This document shows positions 3,083 through 34,091 of a stretch of DNA of 34,091 bases, piece after piece; within the stretch, counting starts at the first letter, position 1, and each line of letters starts with the position of its first letter. Position numbers and translations under genes: made by a program. This DNA is from a virus. The notes beneath the pieces were generated by a model. It ran no database searches, was not told where the DNA came from, and saw nothing but the letters and a program-made list of their open reading frames with translations. Location: the IMG/VR virus record IMGVR_UViG_3300042691_004247, positions 1 through 34,091 of that record; one strand, 5' to 3'.

Positions 3083-6000
3083 ATGGCAAATTCAGATAAA
3101 AATCTAGTCATTACACCTAATATTGGATCCAGCGCTGGAGATCCAACCATCAATTTTAGTGGTGCAGATGCGTCCTTGGGTCCTCAATCACTTCAAGCTA
3201 GAATTTATCCTACATCAAATGGAACTCTTGCTTTTGAAGGTTCGGCAGGTCAACTCTTTAGCATTACAAATAGTCTGACGGGAACTTTATTCTCTGTCAA
3301 TGACGTTTCTGGTATTCCATCTATTGAAGTTCTCGACAATGGTTCTGTTCGTCTAGCGAGATACAACGGTAACGTTTTGATTGGTAACGTTGTTGACAAT
3401 GGTGTTGATAAACTTCAGTTCGGTGTAGGATCAAGCGTATCGTTCAATAATGTCACAGGAAACACGATGACATCGTTGTCTGGTTTCGCTGGAAATGGAT
3501 CTTTGCTGACAAACTTGAACGGATCTAACGTTGCAACAGGAACAATCGCAAACGCTAGAACAACAGCATCATCAGCTAACGGTGCAAACCTGATTGTTAC
3601 TAGAGGTGCTGCTGGAGAATTCAGTGCAGGAGCAATTACTGCAACAACTTTCACTGGATCAGGATCTGGTCTAACTTCAATTCCCAACTCAGCAACAACG
3701 GCGTCATCAGCTAACGGTGCAAATCTGATTGTCGCTAGAGATGCTTCTGGTAACTTTGTTGCCAACAGAATTGATGCAAACATCTCAAAAGCAAATCCAC
3801 AAGTATTCTCAACAGATGGAGAATTTTCTGTAGTTCAGAACGTTTCTTCATGGACTTTAAGCACAAGTCATCCGATCATCAGATGGTCATTCAATACGCC
3901 GTATGATGATAACACGATGATAAGTTCTGGTGGAAATGCAGCACCTACCACACAAACATCTCTTGTTGTCAGTGAAGTTGGCGGAATTATTTTCGGTAAG
4001 TCGAACACAACACCTTCGACAAATAGCGTTTTGTCAACAGAGTGGGGAAGAGCAAACTCCGCCGGTATCTTCTTGACATCGGGCATCGTGACAAGTGCTG
4101 GATTGAATAGTCTGACAGGAGGAGTCGCAAATAATCCAGGCGTCTGGAGCACTAGCAGTTTTGATGGAACATCAACTCCTTTTGCATCAATTTCGGGAGG
4201 CACGGGTGAAAGGGCACCAGCGGTATCATTGACTCTGTGGAATACAACTGCATCAGCAAAACCCACGTTTTCACTTTCACGCAGCAAGAGTGGAACCGTA
4301 GGAACATTCTCAAAAGTTTCATCGGGAGATGTTCTTGGTTCTGTAGATTTTCAAGGTGATGATGGAACAAAATTTGACGCATCAGCATCTCTCATGACAA
4401 TTGTTGATGGAGAAACGGCAAACAATATCATTCCTTCTGCATTTACAATTAGAACAGTTAGACCAACAGGAGGAATTCCTGTTGCTGGTTTGCATGTAAG
4501 CCCGTATCAATCTGTTTCTGTAGGATCGACTGTTATTGGTTCTCAAGTTGCTGGCGCCACAGCAACATCATCAACTGTGTTTACTGTGGCTGGCAACATA
4601 AGAACTAATAATGCATCTGGAACTGGTCAAGCGGTAGGAATGAGAGTTAGATCGATTGTTTCTCCTGATGTTACAGTGTCTGGTGCTCATTACGAAACAT
4701 GGTTTTATAGTGATGATGTTGTTTTCACAACAACAAACTTTCAGCATTACAACACTGCAATGGTTGGAAAAGCAGATAGACACACCGTAACAAATCTTGC
4801 AGGATATAATATTGGTTCTGGATTTCATGGTGGCACAAACAACTATGGATTCCAATCATCGCTGAATGCACCTCCAGCAGGAACAACAGCAGCATCTGCA
4901 ATATCTTCTCTTTCTGTTACTTCTAACGTTGTCACAGTAACAACATCAACTAATCACGGGCTTACTACTGGGCAGATTGTAACAATTGCAACCAATACTA
5001 TAGCAGCAACATCTACAGTCGCGGGCGTTGAATACACGATTGTTTCTGTTGGAGACACAAACTTTACATCTATCGGTGCTGCAAACACATCATCTTTCGT
5101 TGGAAATATTTCAGGAACAACTTTGACTGTTACTGGAGTCAATAGTGGATACATAAGAGTAGGAACAACAATCTTTGGCTCTGGCATAACGGCAGGAACA
5201 CAAATTACTGCTGCCGGCACAGGAACAGGTGGTCCCGGAACTTACACTGTAAACAACTCACACACGGTCTCGGGCGTAACATTTACTGGATTGACTCCAG
5301 GAATAACTTTCACCGCAACAGGTGCTGGAACAGGAACAGGAACCGTTCGTCTACAAACTGACGGTAGCGGAATAACAATTGCAAACACAGGTGTTGCGAC
5401 ATTCACATATTCAAGAACAACGGCTAACGTTTCTTCAGTTGCGGTTGGTGGAACAGTTACACCGAACAGAAGATACAGTTTGTATTTCCCAGGATCAGCA
5501 GACAGCTACATGGCTGGAAGACTTGGGATCGGAACAGAAACTCCTGCATTCCCACTTGATGTTACGGGTACAGTAAGGGCGACAACATTCTCCGGTGCCA
5601 TCGTCGGTGACGGTTCTGGTCTATCTAACTTGAATGCGGCAAACGTTGCAACTGGAACTTTATCTAACGCAAGAACAACAGCGACATCAGCTAACACCGC
5701 GTCAGCAATTGTTGCTAGAGGTACTGCTGGAGAATTTAGTGCTGGTAATATCACTGTAAAAAACATAGATTCTGATGTCACTATTGGTGCAAACTCATCA
5801 ACTTCATTGTTAGATGTCACATACACAATTGATAACACAGAGTCAATTTCGGCGTTAAGAAGTAAATTTGGTATTAGATCGACCATTGAAGCTAGTGATA
5901 AAACAGCAGAAGCATTTGATCTTGATCTTTATGGTGTTCAGGGGCTTATCAATTCTAATTATCAGTATTCTATCACTGGATATGGAAATTTGTATGGCAC

Positions 6001-7999
6001 GCAGGGTAGAGTAAACGTATACGACAACGACGGAGCAAATAACAAAATTGATTCTGTCCATGGAACTTATGGAACAGTTGTCGTCTATGGAGCAAATTCA
6101 GTAATTAACAATGTACGAGGAACCACAGGTGCTGCAAGTATAAATGGCGCAGTAGCAAATGCAAATATTCAAAATATGGCTGCTGCATATCTTGATTTGA
6201 GACCATTGGGCGCATCAACATCTAATGTTACTTCAACATATTTTGTATATGGAGTATATGGAGGCGGTGCTGCTACAGCTAACGTTGGTAATGCATACGG
6301 AATTCACATAGGTTCAGACATCAACAATTATTTGGGCGGAAGTCTAAAGATTGGATCTGCAGGTGGTGCACCAACTGGAAATACAGGATCAACCATTGGT
6401 CTTGAAGTTTCAGAAGTTGACGGTGCAACAATAAGATTGACTTCAACAGACACAACAGGCGCTCTTGATCAGATGATTGGTCAGATCCAGTTCTATGGAT
6501 CTGACTCAGATGCCCCGGGCGCCGGCGTAAAAGCTAAGATTGCGACATACATGACTCCTGCTGCCGGTGATGGTAGCTACTTGACTTTCAGCACTTCTGA
6601 CGGCACAACTAACGACATTGAGAGAGTTAGAATTCTTTCAAGTGGTAACGTTGGCATAGGAACTATTGGTCCAACAGAAAGACTGGAAGTTAATGGTACA
6701 GTAAAAGCAACATTGTTCTCTGGTTCTGGTGCTTCTCTAACATCTGTTCCTGCGGGTCAACTCTCAGGAACAATACCTTCTGCTGTACTTGGCAATTCAT
6801 CTCTTTTCATTGGTACAACTTCCGTTGCTTTGAATAGAGCGAGTGCTGATTTAGCGATTGCCGGCATTACATCTATTACGGGCAGAACTGGAGGCAGTTT
6901 AACTATTGAAAGTCCAGCTGCTGCCACTGGAAGCAGTCAATCCATAACCATAACTACAGGTAATGCTACTCAAGCAGCAGCCGTTAATAGTGGCGGATTA
7001 AACATCTATACGGGTAACGTTACTGATGCAGCAGGCACTGGAGCTGGTTTTATCAATATCAAGCCGGGTACCAGTGGAGGTGGTATTTCATTTGGAAGTG
7101 CCTTAAATTTAAGTGCTGGTGATGTATTTACTACGGGCAGTTCCGGCGGAACTGCTACTTTAGCTGGAGGAAAAAATACTGTTACATCAGGTACTGCTAT
7201 TGGCGGCGCGGTTTATGTAACGGGTGGTGCTGTATCAACTGTTAATGCTATCACTAAAAATACAGGTAGTGTTTACATCGACGGAGGTGGCAGTGGCGCA
7301 AGTGGTGCTATTACGTATGGTTCTGTCTTTATTGGAAATCAATCAAACGGTGTTACATACGGAACAACCCATGTAACTATAGGTAAGTCTGGCACAGAAG
7401 TAAGACTTCCTGGTGTTGGTACTTCTGGATTCGTTAAGTTAAGCACTAACGGCGCTCTAATTCAAGATACGAGTACATACGCTGCAACAAATCAGACGAT
7501 GTTCATTGGTACTACATCAGTGGCTATCAATAGAGCAAGCGCCAGTTTAGCATTAACTGGTATAACCAGCATAGACGGTTCAGCAGCTACTTTCACTAGC
7601 ACAACTCAAAACTCACAATTCAACTCAATAGGTGTTGGTACAGCAGGAAGTGGAACAGCAGGTGAAATTAGAGCGACAAACAACATTACAGCATATTACT
7701 CAGACGAAAGACTGAAGACAAATCTAGGCAACATAGATAATGCACTAGATAAAGTTAGTCAGTTGAACGGTTTCTATCATGAGGCTAATGAATTGGCACA
7801 GTCTTTGGGTTACGAAAAAATTCGTGAAGTTGGTGTGTCTGCTCAAGAAGTTCAAAGAGTTCTTCCTGAAGTTGTCGCAGCAGCACCTATCAGTGACGAA
7901 TACTTGACAGTTAGATATGAAAGAATTGTTCCTCTTCTCATAGAAGCTATAAAAGAACTAAAAGCCGAATTAGATGCAATCAAAAGAGAGATGAAGTAA
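3083..7999 (+). CDS. Long tail fibre with C-terminal Peptidase_S74 chaperone
   Basis: This is a 1638-residue fibre. The N-terminus (MANSDKNLVITPNIGSS, LAFEGSAGQLFSITNS, FSVNDVSGIPSIEVLDNG) matches a module recurring at the head of phage fibres. The middle has repeated units of the type GDGSGLSNLNAANVATGTL / NARTTASSANGANLIV (around residues 135-230 and 845-890), Gly/Thr-rich beta segments near 615-790, and a shaft. The C-terminus is the intramolecular chaperone of the endosialidase type: SDERLKTNL with the Ser-Lys pair at Ser1540 and Lys1545, then GVSAQEVQRVLPEVV and a terminal helix. By family rule it trimerises the fibre and cleaves itself before Ser1540, releasing 99 residues. The start is the ATG after a late-promoter-like box; the ribosome site is weak. 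Confidence 0.85.
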   Translation: MANSDKNLVITPNIGSSAGDPTINFSGADASLGPQSLQARIYPTSNGTLAFEGSAGQLFSITNSLTGTLFSVNDVSGIPSIEVLDNGSVRLARYNGNVLIGNVVDNGVDKLQFGVGSSVSFNNVTGNTMTSLSGFAGNGSLLTNLNGSNVATGTIANARTTASSANGANLIVTRGAAGEFSAGAITATTFTGSGSGLTSIPNSATTASSANGANLIVARDASGNFVANRIDANISKANPQVFSTDGEFSVVQNVSSWTLSTSHPIIRWSFNTPYDDNTMISSGGNAAPTTQTSLVVSEVGGIIFGKSNTTPSTNSVLSTEWGRANSAGIFLTSGIVTSAGLNSLTGGVANNPGVWSTSSFDGTSTPFASISGGTGERAPAVSLTLWNTTASAKPTFSLSRSKSGTVGTFSKVSSGDVLGSVDFQGDDGTKFDASASLMTIVDGETANNIIPSAFTIRTVRPTGGIPVAGLHVSPYQSVSVGSTVIGSQVAGATATSSTVFTVAGNIRTNNASGTGQAVGMRVRSIVSPDVTVSGAHYETWFYSDDVVFTTTNFQHYNTAMVGKADRHTVTNLAGYNIGSGFHGGTNNYGFQSSLNAPPAGTTAASAISSLSVTSNVVTVTTSTNHGLTTGQIVTIATNTIAATSTVAGVEYTIVSVGDTNFTSIGAANTSSFVGNISGTTLTVTGVNSGYIRVGTTIFGSGITAGTQITAAGTGTGGPGTYTVNNSHTVSGVTFTGLTPGITFTATGAGTGTGTVRLQTDGSGITIANTGVATFTYSRTTANVSSVAVGGTVTPNRRYSLYFPGSADSYMAGRLGIGTETPAFPLDVTGTVRATTFSGAIVGDGSGLSNLNAANVATGTLSNARTTATSANTASAIVARGTAGEFSAGNITVKNIDSDVTIGANSSTSLLDVTYTIDNTESISALRSKFGIRSTIEASDKTAEAFDLDLYGVQGLINSNYQYSITGYGNLYGTQGRVNVYDNDGANNKIDSVHGTYGTVVVYGANSVINNVRGTTGAASINGAVANANIQNMAAAYLDLRPLGASTSNVTSTYFVYGVYGGGAATANVGNAYGIHIGSDINNYLGGSLKIGSAGGAPTGNTGSTIGLEVSEVDGATIRLTSTDTTGALDQMIGQIQFYGSDSDAPGAGVKAKIATYMTPAAGDGSYLTFSTSDGTTNDIERVRILSSGNVGIGTIGPTERLEVNGTVKATLFSGSGASLTSVPAGQLSGTIPSAVLGNSSLFIGTTSVALNRASADLAIAGITSITGRTGGSLTIESPAAATGSSQSITITTGNATQAAAVNSGGLNIYTGNVTDAAGTGAGFINIKPGTSGGGISFGSALNLSAGDVFTTGSSGGTATLAGGKNTVTSGTAIGGAVYVTGGAVSTVNAITKNTGSVYIDGGGSGASGAITYGSVFIGNQSNGVTYGTTHVTIGKSGTEVRLPGVGTSGFVKLSTNGALIQDTSTYAATNQTMFIGTTSVAINRASASLALTGITSIDGSAATFTSTTQNSQFNSIGVGTAGSGTAGEIRATNNITAYYSDERLKTNLGNIDNALDKVSQLNGFYHEANELAQSLGYEKIREVGVSAQEVQRVLPEVVAAAPISDEYLTVRYERIVPLLIEAIKELKAELDAIKREMK

Positions 8000-8000
8000 A

Positions 8001-11000
8001 ATGCCAATTTCGTCAACAGGTGGAATATCATTTGCCGATCTTCAAGCTCAATTTGGAGGCTCTGGTCCGATATCTCTCAGTCAGTATTTTCCAGTTGCAA
8101 CTTTTGGTTCAGGACCAGAGGGCGGAACGGGAAGAGGATACTATGCTGGGGGTGTTCAAGGAGCATCGATACTAACAGAAATTGACGGCATTCAGTTTTT
8201 CAACGAAACTTCTATTAATCCAGCTGCCACCCTCTCGGAAGCAAGAGGTTGGACTGTTGGAATTGGTAACTCCCTAAATGGATATTTTTGTGGGCAAGGC
8301 GCAAGAATAGATAGACTCACATATTCAACAGAGTCTATACAACAACTTTCTGCACAATTAATTTCAACTATTACAGGATGTGCTGGAACTTTTAGTTCAA
8401 CAGCAGGATATATTGCAGGTGGAGAAGATTCTGCGACTTCAGGCAACCCCGCAAACACTATACAAAAGTTTTTATTTTCTACAGAGATCAGAACCACTAT
8501 ATCCACAGTTTTAAGTGTAGCTAGAGAATTTATCGCGGGCGTCAGCAGTGTGACGCGAGGATACTATGGTGGAGGAAATTCACTTGGAGGATATTCCACA
8601 GAAATAGACGGTATTCAATTCTCGAATGAGACTGCTATCAATCCATCTGCAACTTTGGCGTCAGCGCGAGGTTTTTTGACCGATGTCAATAGTTCAACAA
8701 GAGGATACTTCTGTGGTGGGTTCAATGGAGTCTCTTACTTTAAGGAAATAGACGGCATTCAATTCTCAGATGAAACTGCTATTAATCCAACCAACAATTT
8801 GATAGATTTTCGCTATGCTCCAGCAGGAACTAGCAGTTTAGCGAATGGCTATATTGCAGGAGGTTCTTATGCTGGAGAGTTAAGTTCTTGCGATAGGTTT
8901 AACTTTTCCGATGAAACAGTTAGAACTTTATCTTCAATTTTGTCAGTTGCCAGAAATGCAGTTGGCGGAGTTGAATACAACAGCACTCGCCCATTGTCGG
9001 GTAGAGGTTACTTCGGTGGCGGCAGTAATGGTCAAGGTGGGCAAACTGTAATAGATGGCATAGATTTTTCTAGCGAGTCTACAGTAATCACATCTGCAAC
9101 TATGGCAACTGCAAGGTCTGGTATAGCTGGTCTGAGTAGTACAAAACGAGGATATTATTGCTCAGACACAGAAATAGACGGTATTCAGTTCTCGGATGAG
9201 TCTTCAATTAATCCTACAGCATCGCTAACTAATAATAGAACACACAGGGCTGGAGTTAGCGCATCGACAAGAGGTTATTGTGGCGGAGGAGTGAATGCGA
9301 CTGTTCCATATGCACAAATCGACGGATTTCAATTCTCTGATGAGACTGCGTTTGGTCTAACGGCTACTTTGAGTGTAGCTAGACAGTCTTTAGCTGGAGT
9401 TAATAGTTCGATAAGAGGATATTTCTGTGGAGGTTCACCCACAACTGGAGAAATTGATGGCATTCAGTTCTCTGATGAGTCTGCGATTAATCCTAGTGCA
9501 AGTATAGGGGCTCGCGCAAACTTAGCTGGAGTCAGCAGTTCAACAAGAGGTTATTGTGGAGGTGGTGGCGCTGGAAGTGGAGAAATTGATGGTATTCAGT
9601 TCTCAGACGAAACTTATATCAATCCAAGCGCATCGATATCTGGTAGATATTATTTGACGGGCGTCAATAGTACAACTAGAGGATACTTTGCGGGTGGCTT
9701 TACTACAGATGAAATTGATGGTATTCAGTTCTCAGACGAAACTTATATCAATCCATCAGCAGCATTAACTGTCGCTAGAACACAGTTGGGTGGTGTATCC
9801 TTCAATCCTCCAAGAACTTTGTCTGCGAAGGGATTCTTTGGTGGTGGTAGCACATCATCACAGACTAATGAAATAGACGGTATTCAGTTTTCGGATGAAT
9901 CTGCTATCAATCCATCTGCAACATTGAGTGTTTCGAGGTATAATGTGGCTGGCGTTAATAGTTCCACAAGAGGTTACTTTGGGGGTGGAAATATAGGAGG
10001 AACCGAGTATACTGAAATAGATGGTATCCAATTCTCCGATGAATCCGCAATCAATCCAGCAGCAACATTAAGCGTCGCTAGAGGAAATGCAGCAGGTGTA
10101 AGTAGTTCTACTAGAGGATACTTCGGTGGTGGATATAGAAGTGGTCCAGGTGTAACAAACGAAATAGATGGCATCCAATTCTCTGACGAATCAGCAATCA
10201 ATCCAGCAGCAACATTAAGTGTTGCTAGATACAGATTGGCTGGCGTTAATAGTTCCACAAGAGGTTACTTTGGGGGCGGAGTAATAGGTTCATACACAAG
10301 CGAAATAGATGGCATTCAGTTTTCGGATGAATCTGCTATCAATCCATCTGCAACACTTAGTGATTCGGGTAGAATGGATCCTGCTGGTGTAAGTAGTTCT
10401 ACTAGAGGATACTTCGGGGGTGGATATAAAGTCACATATTCAAATATAATTGATAGTATTCAATTCTCGGATGAAACTGCAACCACACCAACAGCAACGT
10501 TATCCGCTGCTCGTTATGCTTTAGCTGGAGTGAATAGTTCTACTAGAGGATACTTCGGTGGTGGATATAGCGCATCTGGATATCTAAACGAAATAGATGG
10601 CATTCAGTTTTCGGATGAATCTGCTATCAATCCAGCAGCAACTCTAGCTGTGGGAAGATATTATCATGCTGGCGTATCATGCAGATTCAATCTAAACTTT
10701 CTAGTTCCTCACGATGGCGGAAAAGGCTACTGGGGAGGAGGCTCTGGTCCAGGCATAATAAGTGACGTCACCGGAATGAGTTTTTCTACTGAAACTAGAA
10801 TTAATCCTGGCGCTAATTTAAGCGAAGCAAGAGAAGGTGCTGCTGGTATTAATAGTGAAGTGAAGGGATACTGGGCAGGCGGAAAAAATACATCTTTAAG
10901 CTATGTCGGCACCATAGATTCAATAACGTTTAACAACGACTCTATTTCTGCTTTGACTCAAACTTTAAGCGTTCCTAGAATGGACTTAGCGGGAATAAAC

Positions 11001-13472
11001 AGTGGATCACGAGGATACTTCGGTGGCGGAACTAATGGATCTCCCGTATCTACGATAAACGGCTTTAGATTCGTAGAGGAAACTACTTTTACGCCAAGTC
11101 AAAATTTGTCTCCGTTTAGAAGCGGTCTAACTGGAGTTAGTGCCACGACAAAGGGATATTTTGGAGGCGGCGTAGATTCTAACAATTTTGTTCGAGGCGA
11201 AGTTGAACTATTTCGATTCTCTGATGAAACTAATCTTGGTGTGTATGCTTACCTAGCTGAGAATAGATCGGGTGTAGCGGGCGTGAGCAGTTCAACACGA
11301 GGATATTTTGGAGGTGGATTCAACACTAGTACATATTCAAGTCAGATAGATGGAATTCAGTTCTCAAACGACTCAGCTATCAATCCTTCAGCAACTCTAT
11401 CTCTTGCAAGAAATCTTTTAAGTGGAACTAACAGCAGAGTTCGTGGCTATTGGGGAGGAGGTGCAGATTCTGCTTTTAGGAGTGACATAGACGGCATTCA
11501 GTTCTCGGATGAAACTGCTATTAATCCAAGCGCAACTATAGCATCATCAATTTGGAGATTGGCGGGAGTTTCGTATATTGTTCCACAGACAAGTTTAACT
11601 CTTGCTAGAGGCCGCGGGTATGTCGGAGGTGGATATACTACTGCTGGTGTTAATGAAATTGACGGTATACAATTCTCCAACGATTCTGCAATCAATCCTA
11701 GCATCGCGTTGTCTACTACAAGTTTTTATATTACTGGCGTTAACAGTTCTACTAAAGGATATTTTGCTTATACAGCGTTCGCCGACGCACTCCAGTTCTC
11801 TACTGAATCCATATCTCTATTATCTTCCTTATTTAGTATTGGAAAGTACTCCGCAGCCGGAGTTAATAGTTCTACAGCAGGTTATATAGCTGGAGGATTA
11901 TCTGGTACTTTAAGAGATGAAATAGATAAATTACAATTTTCTAACGAAATCATATCAACTTTAGTAACAAAATTATCTTCAGCTAGACAGCGCATGACTG
12001 GACTTAGTTCTCTCACTAGAGGATATTATTGCGGAGGATATACTACTGCTGGTGTTAATGAAATAGACGGCATTCAGTTCTCTGATGAATCTGCTATCAA
12101 TCCAGGCGCAATGTTTACTGAAGCGACATATTTTAATGCTTCAGTAAATGACAGAAATGCACAAAAAGGATACATAGCAAAAGGTATAGGTGGTGCGTCT
12201 TTAAGACTTACAATATATGGACTAACATATTCAACTGAAACTACATTTATTTCATCGTCCGCCATGACGGAGTATGGTCAAGGGGCGATGGGGATGAATA
12301 GTACACAATCCGGATATTTTACTGGAGGTATCGTTTCTACCGTAAATAAAAACGTGTTTGAAAAAATGAGATTTGGAGATGAAACAGTTACTACTCTTTC
12401 GGCGACATTGAGTCAAGCTAGAGCATATTCGGGCGCCGTATCCGATACGGCTGACTCGCCACTAAACGGCATTTCAGGTCCATACTTACCAAATGACTTT
12501 TCTTCTATTGCACCATCTAGTGATTTATCATCAAATAGTTCTCTAACATTCGCGATGTCAATTGATCAGTTTAGAGGAGTGAATACCTACAGAGGATACT
12601 TTGGTGGAGGATTTGATTTTTCTCAAACTACCGAAATAGATGGCATTCAGTTTTCGAATGAATCTGCTATCAACCCATCTGCAACGCTTTCTTTAGCTAG
12701 AAACGTTCTAGCGGGGGTCAACAGTTCAACTAGAGGATATTTTGGTGGAGGTTTTACTGTGGCATCCGCACCTACGAATGAAATAGACGGCATTCGATTC
12801 TTCGATGAGTCTGCAATCAATCCAACATTAGTATTGAGCGTTTCTAGATTTGCAGTAGCGGGAGTTAACAGCACCATTAAAGGATATTTTGTCGGGGGGG
12901 CAACAGCTGGCACAGTGGCATCATCAGAGATAGACGGAATTCAGTTCTCGGATGAAACTGCTATCAATCCATCTGCAACTCTGAGCACAGCCAGATACTA
13001 TTCTGCTGGAGTTAATTCTGCTTCGCATGGTTATTGCGCTGGCGGAGATGGCGGGCAAGGTGAAATAGACGGCATTCAGTTCTCGGATGAAACTGCAATC
13101 AATCCGAGTGCAGTGTTAAACTCTTCTAGATCATTTATAGCTGGTGTCAATAGTTCTAGCCGAGGTTATTTTGGAGGAGGAAATACTGGTACTAACGGCA
13201 GTGGTTTCGACGTTAATGAAATCGATGGTATTTTATTTTCCAGTCAAACTGCAATCAATCCAAGTGCAACATTAAGTGTTGCTAGATATGGTGCTTCAGG
13301 CGTCAATAGTTCTATCCGCGGCTACTTTGCTGGTGGATATATAACTGGTACGGCAAGTAATACATCGGAAATTGACGGAATTCAGTTCTCTGATGAAGCC
13401 GCTATAAATCCATCAGCAAGTTTAATTAGTGCTAGAAGAAATTTTACTGGAGTTCAATCTGGTTCTTTATAA
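8001..13472 (+). CDS. Giant kelch-like beta-propeller repeat virion protein
   Basis: This is an 1823-residue protein whose ATG lies one base after the fibre stop. Residues 1-45 (ISFADLQAQFGGSGPISLSQYF) are a short module common at the N-termini of phage tail proteins, probably the virion attachment end. From residue 46 to the end the protein is a series of repeats of roughly 42-50 residues, consensus GYFGGG...EIDGIQFSDESAINPSATLSVAR...AGVNSSTR. The double-glycine strand and spaced aromatics resemble kelch blades. I count 36 repeats, separated after every sixth by a non-consensus linker, giving six sets of six starting at residues 46, 336, 611, 909, 1206 and 1532. Set 5 is the most degenerate and ends in a Ser-rich insertion. 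Similar GYFGGG repeats occur in marine T4-like phage proteins. Function is inferred to be receptor or glycan binding. Confidence 0.8.
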   Translation: MPISSTGGISFADLQAQFGGSGPISLSQYFPVATFGSGPEGGTGRGYYAGGVQGASILTEIDGIQFFNETSINPAATLSEARGWTVGIGNSLNGYFCGQGARIDRLTYSTESIQQLSAQLISTITGCAGTFSSTAGYIAGGEDSATSGNPANTIQKFLFSTEIRTTISTVLSVAREFIAGVSSVTRGYYGGGNSLGGYSTEIDGIQFSNETAINPSATLASARGFLTDVNSSTRGYFCGGFNGVSYFKEIDGIQFSDETAINPTNNLIDFRYAPAGTSSLANGYIAGGSYAGELSSCDRFNFSDETVRTLSSILSVARNAVGGVEYNSTRPLSGRGYFGGGSNGQGGQTVIDGIDFSSESTVITSATMATARSGIAGLSSTKRGYYCSDTEIDGIQFSDESSINPTASLTNNRTHRAGVSASTRGYCGGGVNATVPYAQIDGFQFSDETAFGLTATLSVARQSLAGVNSSIRGYFCGGSPTTGEIDGIQFSDESAINPSASIGARANLAGVSSSTRGYCGGGGAGSGEIDGIQFSDETYINPSASISGRYYLTGVNSTTRGYFAGGFTTDEIDGIQFSDETYINPSAALTVARTQLGGVSFNPPRTLSAKGFFGGGSTSSQTNEIDGIQFSDESAINPSATLSVSRYNVAGVNSSTRGYFGGGNIGGTEYTEIDGIQFSDESAINPAATLSVARGNAAGVSSSTRGYFGGGYRSGPGVTNEIDGIQFSDESAINPAATLSVARYRLAGVNSSTRGYFGGGVIGSYTSEIDGIQFSDESAINPSATLSDSGRMDPAGVSSSTRGYFGGGYKVTYSNIIDSIQFSDETATTPTATLSAARYALAGVNSSTRGYFGGGYSASGYLNEIDGIQFSDESAINPAATLAVGRYYHAGVSCRFNLNFLVPHDGGKGYWGGGSGPGIISDVTGMSFSTETRINPGANLSEAREGAAGINSEVKGYWAGGKNTSLSYVGTIDSITFNNDSISALTQTLSVPRMDLAGINSGSRGYFGGGTNGSPVSTINGFRFVEETTFTPSQNLSPFRSGLTGVSATTKGYFGGGVDSNNFVRGEVELFRFSDETNLGVYAYLAENRSGVAGVSSSTRGYFGGGFNTSTYSSQIDGIQFSNDSAINPSATLSLARNLLSGTNSRVRGYWGGGADSAFRSDIDGIQFSDETAINPSATIASSIWRLAGVSYIVPQTSLTLARGRGYVGGGYTTAGVNEIDGIQFSNDSAINPSIALSTTSFYITGVNSSTKGYFAYTAFADALQFSTESISLLSSLFSIGKYSAAGVNSSTAGYIAGGLSGTLRDEIDKLQFSNEIISTLVTKLSSARQRMTGLSSLTRGYYCGGYTTAGVNEIDGIQFSDESAINPGAMFTEATYFNASVNDRNAQKGYIAKGIGGASLRLTIYGLTYSTETTFISSSAMTEYGQGAMGMNSTQSGYFTGGIVSTVNKNVFEKMRFGDETVTTLSATLSQARAYSGAVSDTADSPLNGISGPYLPNDFSSIAPSSDLSSNSSLTFAMSIDQFRGVNTYRGYFGGGFDFSQTTEIDGIQFSNESAINPSATLSLARNVLAGVNSSTRGYFGGGFTVASAPTNEIDGIRFFDESAINPTLVLSVSRFAVAGVNSTIKGYFVGGATAGTVASSEIDGIQFSDETAINPSATLSTARYYSAGVNSASHGYCAGGDGGQGEIDGIQFSDETAINPSAVLNSSRSFIAGVNSSSRGYFGGGNTGTNGSGFDVNEIDGILFSSQTAINPSATLSVARYGASGVNSSIRGYFAGGYITGTASNTSEIDGIQFSDEAAINPSASLISARRNFTGVQSGSL
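9946..10276 (+). repeat. 40-bp perfect direct repeat within set 3
   Basis: Bases 9946-9985 and 10237-10276 are identical over 40 bases, both coding for the AGVNSSTRGYFGG junction between blades. Neighbouring blades use different synonymous codons for the same residues, so this identity is stronger than protein constraint alone explains. Confidence 0.7.
10301..10634 (+). repeat. 46-bp perfect direct repeat within set 3
   Basis: Bases 10301-10346 and 10589-10634 are identical, coding for EIDGIQFSDESAINP in two blades of the same set. This indicates recent exchange or duplication between blades. Confidence 0.7.
11631..12064 (+). repeat. 29-bp perfect direct repeat within set 5
   Basis: Bases 11631-11659 and 12036-12064 are identical, coding for GYTTAGVNEI in blades 1 and 4 of set 5. 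The residues of this variable loop are shared only by these two blades, so a local copy event is likely. Confidence 0.65.
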
Positions 13473-21679: not shown

Positions 21680-23335
21680 ATGGCAATAAAACTCTTCGGT
21701 TACAAGATCGGCAAAGATGAGCCAGAGAAGGACAATCTAAAGTCATTCGTTCCTCCAACAGAAGATGATGGATCAGTCTCCATCATGGGCGGTGGAATCT
21801 ATGGCACTTACATTGACCTTGAAGGGCAAATCAGAAACGATGCCGATCTTATCAAGAAGTATCGTGAGATGGCTATTCAGCCAGAATGTGATGCAGCAAT
21901 TGATGATATCGTCAATGAAGCAATCGTATTCCAAGACAATGACTATCCAGTTCAGATCAATCTAGAAAAACTCCAGCAACCTGAGTCTATCAAGAAGAAG
22001 ATCAAAGAAGAGTATGAGCATGTCATGAAGTTGCTTGACTTCAACAATCAAGGCTATGACATTTTCCGTCGTTGGTACGTTGATGGTAAACTATACTATC
22101 ACATGGTCATTGATGAGAAGAATGCCAGACAAGGTTTGAAAGAGATTCGCTACGTTGATCCTAGAAAGATTCGTAAAGTGCGTGAGTTGCAGAAAGACAA
22201 GTTGAACCTTGTTCAAGCTGAACCCGCAATCAAAAAGCCAGTTGAATACTATGTTTTCTCTGAGAAGGGTTTTGCTAAAGACGCAAACCAAGGGCTGAAG
22301 ATTTCTACAGATTCCATCTGTTACGTTCACTCTGGTGTTTCAGACAAAGATGGTAAAGTCATCATCTCTCATCTTCACAAAGCAATCAAGCCATTGAACC
22401 AGTTGCGTATGCTTGAAGATGCGACAGTCATCTATCGTATCTCACGCGCACCTGAGCGTAGAATCTTCTACATTGACGTTGGTAACTTACCAAAGATCAA
22501 AGCGGAACAATATCTACGTGAGATCATGCAGAAGTATAAGAACAAACTAGTCTACGATGCACAGACTGGTGAGATTCGCGATGATCGTAGATTCCAGACG
22601 ATGCTAGAAGACTTCTGGCTGCCACGTAGAGAAGGTGGAAAAGGAACTGAAATCACTACACTTCCTGGTGGGCAGAACCTTGGGCAGATTGAAGACGTTC
22701 AATACTTCCAAGAGAAGTTCTATAAGTCATTGAACGTTCCCATCTCTAGACTGAAGTCTGACACTGGGTTCTCACTTGGGCGCGCATCAGAAATCACTCG
22801 CGATGAATTGAAGTTCTCAAAGTTCATTGCGAGACTTCGCCTAAGATTCTCCCACTTGTTTGACAGACTTCTAGAGACTCAATTGCTTCTGAAGGGTGTA
22901 TGTACACGCGCAGAGTGGTTGCAGTTGAAAGAAGAGATCAGCTATACATTCCAATCGGACGTTCACTTCACTGAGATGAAGGAAGCTGAGTTGATGAAGG
23001 AACGCATTGCTATTCTCACAGACTTGGATCAGTTTGTTGGCAAGTACATTTCACGCAAGTATGTTCGCACTAAGGTTCTTCGTCAGACTGAAGATGAGAT
23101 GGAACAGATCGACAAGGAAATGGAAGAAGAGTTGCCACTTGAGCAAGCTGAAGCTGAAATGGATGCAATGGCTCAAGAACCACCTCCAGCTCCACCTCCT
23201 CCACCAGCACCAACTCAGATCGTGATCAAGAAAGAAGAAGTCTTTGATGACAACGATCAGAAAGAACTAGCACGTTCTATGTCTCGTTTCTTTGATGTTC
23301 TAACTGAAGAAACTGAAGATGACAGAAAGAAGTGA
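21680..23335 (+). CDS. gp20: Portal vertex protein gp20
   Basis: This 551-residue protein (T4: 524) is recognised by the portal signatures [21 protein letters not shown] (residues about 61-81), [55 protein letters not shown] and [25 protein letters not shown]. The dodecameric ring initiates head assembly, docks the terminase and later the neck. The C-terminus has a Pro-rich stretch (about residues 500-511) followed by an acidic tail, an extension typical of environmental T4-likes. The ATG follows AAGGA shortly after a terminator, with no visible promoter in between, so expression appears to depend on read-through. Confidence 0.97.
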
Positions 23336-24443
23336 TCTATTAGATGATGCTCTGAGCATCGCCACTTCAATTGCTTACACGAAGAAACAGTTTGGTAAGC
23401 TAAAGCAAGAGATCGAAGAGATCAAGCAATCTAAAGGTGGCGATGTTATTGTTGAGTATGTGCAAGGTCCTAAAGGAGACACGGGACCTCGTGGATTGCC
23501 TGGCGTCAAAGGAGACTTGGGTGAACAAGGTCCTGCTGGTCTTCCAGGTCCACAGGGTCCACAAGGTGAGCGTGGAGATCAAGGCATTCAAGGCAAAGAA
23601 GGACCAGTTGGTCCTATTGGTCCACAGGGCGAACAAGGCGTTCAAGGCGAACGTGGTGAAAAAGGTGAGAAGGGCGACAAAGGAGAAAAGGGAGACAAAG
23701 GCGACACTGGAGAACAAGGTCCTCAAGGTGTTCAAGGTGAACGTGGGCTTCCGGGCAGAGATGGCGTAGACGGTAAGAATGGTAGAGATGGTGTAGATGG
23801 TAAAGATGGCGCACAGGGACCAAAAGGTCCTAAAGGCGACAGAGGAGAAAAGGGAGACAAAGGTAACGTAGGTCCTATGGGTCCTGCTGGGTTACCTGGG
23901 CAAAAGGGAGACACTGGTGCAGTTGGTCCTAAAGGTGAAGATGGCAAAGACGGTAAAGATGGCAAGACTCCTGAAATAAAACCTTTCCTTGACAAGATAT
24001 CAGAACACTACAAATCGCTCCAGACTTCACTGATCAACAAAGTCAATCTCGCTATCAATACACTAGGTGGTGGTGGATCATCAGGTGGTGGTTCTGTCAA
24101 TCTTCTGGACAATGATGACGTTGAGTTCCAACAATTGTCTGCAACAGCAAACAACTCTGTTCTCATCTTTGATTCCACTAAAAAGAAGTTCGTCGCAAGG
24201 GATCTGGTAGCATTCATAAATAGCATACAGACAGGAGTAGAAGTGCAGTATAACAAGTTGATTGACGTTAGCGGTAACTATACGTACATTGGCGAAGCAT
24301 TGCCAGGTACTGCTACGTCATCTGCAACCTGGAGAATCAAGAGGGTTGAACAGATTGGTACTGACTACAACATTCTTTGGGCAAACGGATCATCCGAATT
24401 CAACAAGACGTGGAATGATCGTCTAACCTACGCATACACATAA
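23319..24443 (+). CDS. Collagen-like trimeric fibre protein
   Basis: This 374-residue protein overlaps the end of gp20 by 17 bases. Residues 1-40 form a helix with coiled-coil spacing ([27 protein letters not shown]), a plausible trimer nucleus. Residues 50-217 are 56 uninterrupted Gly-X-Y triplets rich in [12 protein letters not shown] and GLP. The remaining 150 residues are globular, with a Gly-rich linker (GGGGSSGGG) and a module around [24 protein letters not shown] that recurs at phage fibre C-termini, ending in an immunoglobulin-like [10 protein letters not shown]...[12 protein letters not shown] segment. It is most likely a thin virion-surface fibre; the attachment site (portal/neck or head) is suggested only by position. 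Confidence 0.88.
23466..23969 (+). repeat. 56 Gly-X-Y triplets (collagen-like)
   Basis: There are 56 consecutive nine-base units, each starting with a glycine codon, coding for residues 50-217 of the collagen-like protein with no interruption. Charged K/E/D/R triplets are concentrated in the middle, consistent with salt-bridge stabilisation where proline hydroxylation is absent. Confidence 0.9.
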
Positions 24444-31626: not shown

Positions 31627-31845
31627 ATGACAACGTTACAACAAGCGATAGAATTTGCTAGAGATGCTAAAGTTGCAGACTTCAAAGGTGTCATCAACGA
31701 CATTCTTGCAGATAAGGTGCAAGATCATCTAGCAATTGCAAAGATGCGAGTTGCAAACAAAATATTCAACAATACGGAAGAGTCTGATACTTCGGATGAC
31801 GAATTCAGAACAGACGCAGAGGATAAAGTAGATGAAGACCTTTAG
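31627..31845 (+). CDS. gp67: Prohead core protein, gp67-like
   Basis: This 72-residue protein (T4 gp67: 80) has an amphipathic helical N-terminal half (MTTLQQAIEFARDAKVADFKGVINDIL, in parts) with DHLAIAKMRVANKIF, resembling the IAIAR segment of T4 gp67, and an extremely acidic C-terminal third (EESDTSDDEFRTDAEDKVDEDL). Position supports this: it opens the block that ends with gp21, as in T4 (67-68-21). In T4 it is part of the scaffold core and is later degraded by the protease. I see no clear LxE or IxE cleavage site in it. AGGAG is well placed before the ATG, and its 3' end overlaps the next gene by 14 bases. Confidence 0.75.
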   Translation: MTTLQQAIEFARDAKVADFKGVINDILADKVQDHLAIAKMRVANKIFNNTEESDTSDDEFRTDAEDKVDEDL

Positions 31846-33145
31846 AACTTTCTTGGAAGAGGCATTAACTGGTGTTGCACCCAAAGCAAAGGGTGAGCAC
31901 AAGTTCGTTCATTCCACATTTCTGAATCAGATCAAAGATCCAGGCGATCTAGAAAAAGTTGGTCCTGAAGAGATTGGTCCTCATGACACAAAGGCTGGAT
32001 CAGGCAAGCGCCCACTAGACAGACTGGACAACAAGCAAAAGTTCGGTGAGTCTGTTGATCTAGAAGAGAACTATCGCGCACTTGCCCAAAAAGGCATTGG
32101 TGCCGAAAGAAAGCAAGACATCAAGGTTGGTCACGGAGTTGACTACTATCATCCAAAAGATGGATCTAAGCACATGGGCAAGATTCACGACATGGACGAT
32201 AAGGGTTACACAGTCAAAGACGACAAGACTGGTGAGAAGCACAAGTTTGACTACTTCAGAAAAGAAGAAGTTGAACTAGAAGAAGCTCCTTACATGGGCA
32301 AAGGCAATCATCGCCCAGGTTGGATGCTTCGTGCTGATCCTGAACTAGCAAAGAAAGTCAAAGACAAAATTGACGCAGCAAAACTTCGCCAGAAGTACAT
32401 GGGTAAGACTGCCGACGAAATCGCTAAGATGAAGAAGGAAGAAGTTGAGCCCGTAGAAGAAGGCAGAGGCGCATACGATGAACTGACGCGCCGTATGGGT
32501 ACTAGCAGTCCAGGATTCAATAAGACTCCTGCGGGCAAAGCTAGAGAACAGAAACGCAGACAAGAACACCTAAAGGGTCAAATGAAGTTCACTCAGAGAA
32601 TGGGTGGGCTCACTGGTCCTAAGAGTAAACTTCCAGAAGAAGTTGAGTTGGAAGAAGGATCTTCTACATCCAAGAAACCCTTCCGTGACATCAATAGTCC
32701 AGAATATAAAGCAGCAGCAGAAAAGCAAAGAGAAAAAATGGCAAAAGATAAAGCTGCTGAACCAGGAAAGAAACTACTGGACAAGATTGAAAAAAAGGGA
32801 ATGAAAGAAGAGTCTGAACTAGAAGAAGCCGACTTCTCTAAGTCACAGACAAAAATGGCACATGCTATTGGTAAGCACTTCAAGTCAAAAGGTATTGGTG
32901 ACGAAAGCAAAGGTGGTCCATTTGCAGTTGCATCAGCAATGGTAAGAGACAAGCCAGATGCTGCTAAGAAAGCATATGCAACAATCAAAGCAAAGATGAA
33001 GAATGAAGATCATCAAGATATGCTAATGGCACTCTACGATGAACTATCCGAAGAAAATCAATCAAAGTTTGAAGAGATGCTAGAAGTTGATCCAGAAAAG
33101 CTATTGACTTTTGCACAATCTCACTTCTTTTCCACTGAGGAATAA
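31832..33145 (+). CDS. Prohead core / internal capsid polyprotein candidate
   Basis: This is a 437-residue Lys/Glu-rich protein in the place of T4 gene 68. Its N-terminus MKTFRTFLEE-ALTG closely resembles the capsid-targeting peptide of T4 internal proteins (MKTYQEFIAE-A), which gp21 cleaves after residue 10. LEE tripeptides, fitting the (L/I)xE cleavage rule, end at residues 10, 79, 151, 275 and 332, and VEE ends at 210. The intervals are about 57-72 residues. Between them lie small basic modules, for example an SH3/KOW-like one (VGHGVDYYHPKDGSKHMGKIHDMDDKGY in part, about 99-126) and a helical one (FAVASAMVRDKPDAAKKAYATIKAKMK in part, 364-390). It is probably incorporated in the scaffold, cut by gp21 and partly retained with the DNA. 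It overlaps gp67 by 14 bases. Confidence 0.75.
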   Translation: MKTFRTFLEEALTGVAPKAKGEHKFVHSTFLNQIKDPGDLEKVGPEEIGPHDTKAGSGKRPLDRLDNKQKFGESVDLEENYRALAQKGIGAERKQDIKVGHGVDYYHPKDGSKHMGKIHDMDDKGYTVKDDKTGEKHKFDYFRKEEVELEEAPYMGKGNHRPGWMLRADPELAKKVKDKIDAAKLRQKYMGKTADEIAKMKKEEVEPVEEGRGAYDELTRRMGTSSPGFNKTPAGKAREQKRRQEHLKGQMKFTQRMGGLTGPKSKLPEEVELEEGSSTSKKPFRDINSPEYKAAAEKQREKMAKDKAAEPGKKLLDKIEKKGMKEESELEEADFSKSQTKMAHAIGKHFKSKGIGDESKGGPFAVASAMVRDKPDAAKKAYATIKAKMKNEDHQDMLMALYDELSEENQSKFEEMLEVDPEKLLTFAQSHFFSTEE

Positions 33146-33147
33146 TC

Positions 33148-33606
33148 ATGGCTGATGCAGTAACGACACAGATTCTAAAAGACCACGCAAGAGGTTATGC
33201 AGTCAAGCTGACTAACATCTCTGATGGCACAGGCGAAACAAACGTAATCAAAGTTGATGCATCTGCACTTGTTGCAAACACTGGAGTTGGTGCAGAGAGA
33301 TTGACAATCACAAAGGTGTATTGGTCTGTTGCTTCTGGCACATCTTCCACAATGTCACCAAGAGTTGTATTGTCTTGGGGCGGATCACCAAACACAGTCA
33401 TTGCTACGCTAACAGGTTCAGGATATTGGGACTTGTCAACTAGCGGGCAAGCACCATTCACAAACAATGCTTCATCTCCAACAGGCGACATTCTACTTTC
33501 AACAGCTGGATTTACAGCAAACGCTGCATACACAGTTGTCATTGAGGGCAGAAAGGTTGCTGGATATGCAAGTCGTGAAACTACAGACGATGGCGTATCA
33601 CCATAA
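33148..33606 (+). CDS. Small beta-rich virion protein in the head block
   Basis: This 152-residue protein has MADAVTTQILKDHARGYAVKLTNISDGTGETNVIKVDASAL (in parts), then ERLTITKVYWSV and a C-terminal TGDILLSTAGFTANAAYTVVIEGRKV. The combination of a start with an SDGTGE-KVD segment and an end with GDI-ST-G-T--A-YT--IE is a family I recognise from phage structural modules, function unassigned. It starts two bases after the previous stop and 12 bases before gp21. Position in the prohead block makes a capsid decoration or head-surface role possible; a fibre accessory role is the alternative. Confidence 0.7.
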   Translation: MADAVTTQILKDHARGYAVKLTNISDGTGETNVIKVDASALVANTGVGAERLTITKVYWSVASGTSSTMSPRVVLSWGGSPNTVIATLTGSGYWDLSTSGQAPFTNNASSPTGDILLSTAGFTANAAYTVVIEGRKVAGYASRETTDDGVSP

Positions 33607-33618
33607 AAAGGAACTAAG

Positions 33619-34091
33619 ATGAGACTAATTACCGAAGTAAACGAACAGATTAAGTTTGTAACTGAAGCTAGAGAAGATGGCAAGAAGAGCATGTACATTG
33701 AAGGCGTGTACATGCAATCTGAAAGACCAAACAGAAATGGTCGCATGTATCGTTTCGAGACTCTAAACAGAGAAGCGCAGAGATACATCAATGAGTATGT
33801 TCAAAAAGGTCGTGCATTCGGTGAACTTGGACATCCACAAGGACCAACAATCAATCTAGAACGATCAGCTATCCTTATCAAAGACCTTCGTGCTGAAGGA
33901 AATGACTTTATAGGTAAAGCCAAAGTTCTAGACACACCATACGGTAACATCGTAAAGAATCTAATTGATGAGGGAGCTACCCTAGGCGTTTCTACACGCG
34001 GTATGGGAAGCCTAAAAGAAGGAAAAGACGGTATCAAGATTGTGGAAGATGACTTCTATCTTGCTACTGCCGCAGATGTGGTGGCTGATCC
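33619..34091 (+). CDS. gp21: Prohead core protease gp21 (3' truncated by window edge)
   Basis: The frame runs from ATG 33619 (after AAAAGGAACTAAG) to the window end, giving the first 157 residues. It matches T4 gp21: MYIEGVYMQSERPNRNGRMY (about 25-44), AFGELGHPQGPTINLERSA with the catalytic His72, and LGVSTRGMGSL with the catalytic Ser125; the His-Ser spacing is near that in T4 (His85, Ser140). The enzyme is a serine protease of the herpes-assemblin type that matures the prohead by cutting after (L/I)xE. Its own LITE at residues 3-6 fits that rule and may be a self-cleavage site. T4 gp21 has 212 residues, so about a quarter is missing here. Confidence 0.93.
   Translation, partial: MRLITEVNEQIKFVTEAREDGKKSMYIEGVYMQSERPNRNGRMYRFETLNREAQRYINEYVQKGRAFGELGHPQGPTINLERSAILIKDLRAEGNDFIGKAKVLDTPYGNIVKNLIDEGATLGVSTRGMGSLKEGKDGIKIVEDDFYLATAADVVAD

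Follow-up and report, generated by a model that had tools for sequence, protein, structure and literature searches.

The internal proteins (IPs) of phage T4 provide the classic example of protein injection along with phage DNA, and to our knowledge each known member has its own gene and its own tag. IPI starts with MKTFKEF and has ITE/A at the expected end of its tag, while IPII and IPIII start with MKTYQEFIAE/A. In IPIII, residues 4 and 7 are needed for targeting and residues 8 and 10 for processing (PMC9026906). The T4 IPs are delivered by injection, and two of them, IPI and IPIII, counter host defences or probably do so (PMC3012670; PMC9391042): IPI blocks a restriction enzyme and IPIII is required on one E. 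coli strain (PMC9391042). The T4 proteins gp22, gp67 and gp68 belong to the prohead core, are encoded around the protease gene 21 (the head-gene order being 20-67-68-21-22-23) and are cut by gp21 at LxE sites, gp22 and gp67 at several of them. Head proteins of SPN3US and phiKZ are also cut repeatedly by the prohead protease after short Glu-ending motifs (PMC10052503). Polyvalent proteins, such as DarA and DdrB of phage P1, are multidomain chains delivered with the DNA for which proteolytic release has been proposed, and they were likened to viral polyproteins by their authors (PMC5512222). Multiple gp21 cuts per chain and targeting tags are therefore already known, and polyvalent proteins are the closest idea to the arrangement described here. 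A published account of a one-tag, cassette-swapping polyprotein cut by a separate prohead protease was not found in the open-licence literature, and we know of no description of the swapping of dissimilar folded cassettes in gp22, gp67 or gp68.

The DNA analyzed here, referred to as the window, is an isolated virus contig of 34,091 bases from an uncultivated T4-like phage and ends inside gene 21. We consider that the ORF at 31832..33145 (plus strand), which encodes a 437-aa protein, specifies a modular polyprotein precursor of internal head proteins that is directed to the prohead by a capsid-targeting sequence (CTS) and processed by gp21, and we place the probability of this reading at about two in three. 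Orthologues occupy the equivalent place in relatives. The genes around the ORF, all on the plus strand, are those of a head operon. The head-gene region begins with the gp20 portal protein (21680..23335; PHROG 213, E 5e-208). Directly upstream of the polyprotein is a 72-aa gp67-like prohead core protein (31627..31845), whose gene overlaps the polyprotein start at its 3' end and which aligned with T4 gp67 by hhalign (probability 75%, E 2.7e-5), with a weak match to PHROG 1064 ("prohead"). A 152-aa protein that is kept in relatives by synteny (33148..33606; no family match in Pfam or PHROG) separates the polyprotein from the candidate processing enzyme, the gp21 prohead protease (33619..34091, with the 3' end cut by the window), which was identified by PF03420 (E 1.8e-33), PHROG 207 (E 5.6e-62) and alignment and which lies two genes downstream, as an earlier sequence-only reading of the window had stated. 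The order gp67-like gene, polyprotein, small ORF and gene 21 is common to many contigs. Elsewhere in the window, a collagen-like GXY repeat protein (23319-24443) is encoded immediately 3' of the portal gene, and similar genes are found near the portal gene in relatives (e.g. L004, L187 and L258). An ORF of 1823 aa (8001-13472) is made up of at least about 20 GYFGGG...TEIDGIQFSDETAINPSATLS-type repeats and is preceded by a 1638-aa ORF (3083-7999) whose C-terminus resembles, by eye, a tail-spike chaperone domain.

The predicted capsid-targeting peptide of the polyprotein comprises residues 1-10 (31832..31861, plus strand), MKTFRTFLEE, with the cut predicted after E10 and before Ala, and the translation agrees with the sequence-only reading at this point. 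Having F4, F7, L8 and E10, the peptide contains the residue pattern of a T4-type CTS, and residues 4-13 were predicted by AlphaFold to form a helix. The proposed likeness to the T4 tags is further supported by an alignment of 14 syntenic orthologues of 67-437 aa, in which M1, F4 and F7 were the only invariant N-terminal residues. The putative cut site that closes the tag, read by sequence motif, is LEE/A in the window and LDE, ITE, VDE, IKE or ISE in orthologues. A tag motif derived from the T4 IPs alone, MK[TS][FY]xxF, occurred 54 times in 1.1 million residues, 45 of these at an ORF start, and 52 of the 54 occurrences were followed by [LIVMF]xE within 24 residues. The strict tag pattern was passed by 26 of 58 synteny-defined orthologues and by 8% of control ORFs. 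A tag and cut site were also present on a small gp68-like protein of relatives (MLSFKEFI..; PHROG 3503, head scaffolding). In addition, tag-like N-termini were seen on two proteins encoded next to a linker-bearing polyprotein, MKSFTSFFTEA on a putative cytitidyltransferase of Prochlorococcus phage P-TIM68 (L175:2611-3816) and MKSFLELVEEQ on L013:3669-5465, and these may be packaged enzymes.

The remaining predicted sites in the 437-aa protein were located as previously claimed, with LEE tripeptides ending at residues 10, 79, 151, 275 and 332 and VEE at residue 210, giving intervals of 69, 72, 59, 65 and 57 residues. This near-regular spacing exceeds that of random placement (CV 0.089, P ~1e-4), and the five LEE tripeptides compare with 0.35 expected from residue shuffles (p ~5e-5). 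The (L/I)xE motif overall was not enriched in the protein by the same shuffles (7 versus 4.5, p 0.15), and as such the signal lies in the location of the sites and in a longer linker, not in the number of LxE motifs. The fuller linkers are KEEVELEE, KEEVEPVEE, PEEVELEE, KEESELEE and ESVDLEE. At sites 151, 210, 275 and 332 the linker DNA itself is repeated (GAAGAAGTTGAR..GAAGAA), which could guide module exchange by recombination. The protein is Lys-rich (15.3%), as had been noted, and near neutral over the whole chain (86 K+R versus 83 D+E). No family match was obtained in Pfam, PHROG or PADLOC and nothing significant in the PDB, these searches revealed no embedded peptidase or known enzymatic effector domain, and no recognized activity could be attached to any module. 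Neither tblastn against annotated phages nor a scan of genome contigs with the 437-aa protein returned a relative.

Relatives were gathered by scanning viral contigs with the polyprotein and then with gp21. In these, the slot flanked by the gp67-like gene and by the small gene (153 aa) that precedes gene 21 is occupied by proteins that differ greatly in length and share their ends, with extremes of 67 aa (L178) and 437 aa within the close clade and a maximum of 839 aa (L315) in the wider set. The smallest orthologues consist of the tag and a C-module (L178, 67 aa; L007, 92 aa as called or 81 aa from the tag Met, in which a cassette remnant is present). L187 (126 aa) and L179 (174 aa) have an N-module in addition to the tag and C-module, and one or two cassettes are added in L184, L186, L194, L003, L181, L182 and L258. 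L002 (404 aa as called) is 60% identical to the window protein, lacks module 3 and has a different module 5, with both changes falling exactly between sites. The replacement in slot 5 was modelled as a beta-barrel between low-confidence segments, whereas the original in the window is helical, indicating that the slot accepts unrelated folds. This incoming module was also found in L009, after EQIDE. Two further arrangements were observed: the 839-aa syntenic polyprotein (L315:2231-4747) contains a ~50-aa module (SNLSDARLKFHVL...HGSYSKKEMSAEHLRRKKT) three times, and in L321:3895-5001 the join QLDE/A links the basic gp68-like domain to sequence of the linker type, as though the polyprotein had taken up a core gene.

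In the loci fetched, at least three strict linkers were present in 57 distinct ORFs, compared with 0 of 2,006 shuffled ORFs, and the median linker spacing was 72 aa (most 50-80). For gp21-adjacent proteins, length and strict-linker count were moderately correlated (r 0.44) in a set to which the automatic rule had also admitted some portal proteins. Many of the multi-linker ORFs lie elsewhere in the genome and have no tag, and several distant linker-bearing proteins have neither a tag nor a nearby gene 21 in the DNA fetched; for this reason our packaging model is limited to the orthologues adjacent to gp21. One tagless linker-bearing polyprotein of 1431 aa (L009:5453-9745, a contig that is also L016) contains a HicA_toxin domain (Pfam E 2e-11) as well as an insert resembling an intein (Pfam E 6e-4), which matches inteins of phage DNA polymerases. 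In L015, two similar ORFs (YGFVYIWYDKKHKRFYVGSHWG..; 2068-2730 and 10342-10956) flank head/tail genes and by eye resemble GIY-YIG homing endonucleases.

A comparison of homologues had been set beforehand as the check on whether LEE positions are conserved against the modules between them, and it refined the claim: the letters LEE were often replaced (by LDE, ITE, VDE, IAE, ISE, FGE, MKE or MRE), but a hydrophobic-x-Glu motif was kept at the borders. Bare LEE was accordingly rejected as the conserved unit and is a local string. The clearest case is the cassette beginning ADFSK, which follows LEE in the window and L002, FGE in L179, MKE in L186, MRE in L258, VDE in L182 and L194, IAE in L181 and ISE in L007. 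At these joins P1 was Glu in 9/9 and P3 hydrophobic in 9/9, with P2 and P4-P14 variable, against a background of 3.4% for [LIVMF]xE at a random position in these proteins; the nine joins are kin, probably six or seven of them independent, so that 9/9 is not a formal probability. Likewise, the APYMGK module follows LEE in the window and IGE in L006 and L096. Site 79 is found only in the window and L002, other relatives joining at FGE or FAE. Of 119 gp23 proteins read from these loci in the relatives, 112 had [LIVMF]xE at the position cut by gp21 in T4, with P3 mostly Leu and in a few cases Phe, and the predicted cuts in the polyprotein thus match the motif of the clade's own protease as read independently from gp23. 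Phe or Met at P3 is less usual for gp21. The MKE and MRE joins are the less secure ones, since the listed gp23 sites included no Met at P3. Within modules, the deficit of (L/I)xE in the window was not significant (0 versus 1.5 expected), and the wider set, like the control proteins, showed an excess instead, so that avoidance of the motif was not supported by this test, which was weakened partly by the strict linker pattern missing sites. Retention of the motif when the upstream sequence changes is expected if gp21 acts at module borders. The tag, the site motif at the joins, the specificity of the clade protease and the swapping of modules can all be read in the sequences, and on this comparison of orthologues the proposal of gp21-type sites at module borders and of one precursor with many predicted products is well supported.

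Cleavage at the six sites would produce, besides the tag, six products, all encoded on the plus strand. Product 1 (residues 11-79; 31862..32068; 7.5 kDa) is the constant N-module, modelled mostly at low confidence and present in 12 of the 14 aligned clade-A orthologues (L007 and L178 being those without it). Product 2 (residues 80-151; 32069..32284; 8.4 kDa) is modelled as a small beta-barrel of SH3/Tudor-like fold with pLDDT 81-87 across residues 101-140. Its best PDB fold matches, to Tudor domains, were weak (target TM up to 0.74, E ~0.1), and no reliable viral match was found in the fold searches. Products 3 (residues 152-210; 32285..32461; 6.8 kDa), 4 (residues 211-275; 32462..32656; 7.3 kDa) and 5 (residues 276-332; 32657..32827; 6.4 kDa) are predicted to be helical. 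The product 3 module is absent from L002 and follows IGE in L006 and L096, and a homologue of product 5 sits after ELEE in L009. Product 6 (residues 333-437; 32828..33142; 11.7 kDa) combines the ADFSK cassette with the constant C-module and is also modelled as helical (pLDDT 75-89); in the alignment of 14 orthologues the C-module has the invariant residues L398, L401, Y402, L405, N409, F413, F427 and A428. In the AlphaFold model as a whole, the tag is helical, module 2 is a confident small barrel and modules 3 to 6 are helical, with the linkers at sites 151, 210, 275 and 332 (pLDDT <50) lying between more confident modules. The predicted pI values are, in order, 5.9, 6.6, 9.3, 10.0, 8.9 and 5.6; hence the earlier expectation of basic peptides holds for three of the six products, the other three being neutral or acidic.

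The polyprotein is like the T4 IPs in its ten-residue tag with an aromatic residue at position 4 and Phe at position 7, in the (L/I)xE cut site that follows, in its Lys-rich and variable mature part and in having a protease of the same kind encoded in its own genome. It differs in that one tag serves about six modules with internal sites, whereas T4 has one gene and one tag per IP, and in that its gene lies in the head-core operon and not in ip loci. Homology between the mature parts and the T4 IPs was not detected, and a test of the C-module against IPII was also negative. With gp22, gp67 and gp68 it shares the location around gene 21 and, on our reading, a place in the prohead core and cutting by gp21, but the C-module is unlike gp68 in lacking a profile match (probability 0.3% in a profile comparison with T4 gp68), and it is a different ORF in relatives that matches PHROG 3503. 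In SPN3US and phiKZ it is a propeptide that is cut many times and discarded, with one mature product following it in the chain, whereas about six products are predicted here. Polyvalent proteins often include a peptidase of their own together with large enzymatic domains (PMC5512222), whereas the window protein has no peptidase domain, its products would be of 57-105 aa and its candidate cutter is a separate prohead protease.

According to the mechanism that we propose, the first ten residues would act as a T4-type capsid-targeting sequence and carry the chain into the prohead core, where gp21 would cut after hydrophobic-x-Glu at E10, E79, E151, E210, E275 and E332. The tag and about six products of 6-12 kDa would be freed inside the head, and some of them would remain associated with the DNA. 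A core function is probable for the constant end modules, and the central cassettes are probably accessory proteins that exit together with the DNA at infection, like the T4 IPs. We infer the cleavage, packaging, injection and function of the products in this way, and by analogy with the T4 IPs the cassettes may act against host defences. Condensation of DNA by all six products is less likely given that three of them are acidic or neutral.

The most serious alternative, although in our view an unlikely one, is that the protein is a filler of the prohead core or scaffold, which gp21 chops, as it does T4 gp22 and gp67, into pieces that can exit before DNA packaging and have no later role. The location of the ORF among core genes, next to the gp67-like protein and gp21, and the constancy of the end modules, as for a structural role, are consistent with this, as is the fact that T4 core-protein fragments, which are cut many times, and the repeatedly cut propeptides of giant phages are mostly lost (PMC9026906; PMC10052503). 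Less readily accommodated are the central cassettes, which are predicted folded mini-domains of unrelated folds that are freely gained and lost, the 67-aa orthologue that has no central cassette at all, and the placement of the window sites between modules and not scattered inside them.

It is less probable still that only the targeting peptide is removed and the chain stays whole, with the LEE linkers serving as flexible joints and the repeats in their DNA promoting the shuffling of modules. Similar linker DNA at sites 151, 210, 275 and 332 would indeed favour recombination and the low-confidence linkers fit flexible joints, but the joins that lack the linker (FGE, IAE, VDE, MKE, MRE and ISE) keep hydrophobic-x-Glu despite differing flanks, which points to selection on a protein motif recognized by gp21. 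There is very little to commend the view that this is an ordinary cytoplasmic late protein that is not packaged and resembles the IPs at its N-terminus by chance: 8% of control ORFs also pass the strict tag pattern, but M1, F4 and F7 are invariant among 14 orthologues, the gene lies in the head operon and the small gp68-like protein of relatives also has a tag and cut site.

If the reading of a cut-site-delimited, gp21-processed polyprotein is true, many proteins would be loaded into the head by one gene, and a large pool of unannotated phage modules would become testable candidates for proteins that are injected, perhaps to counter defences, and whose ends can be predicted. We also tentatively suggest, as a possibility that we hold to be well short of probable, that the locus is a head-delivered cassette array in which one tag loads different small effectors, mainly for counter-defence, gp21 separates them and phages exchange them between cut sites, much like integron gene cassettes. 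In that event, no new promoters or tags would be required to re-assort the set of injected effectors.
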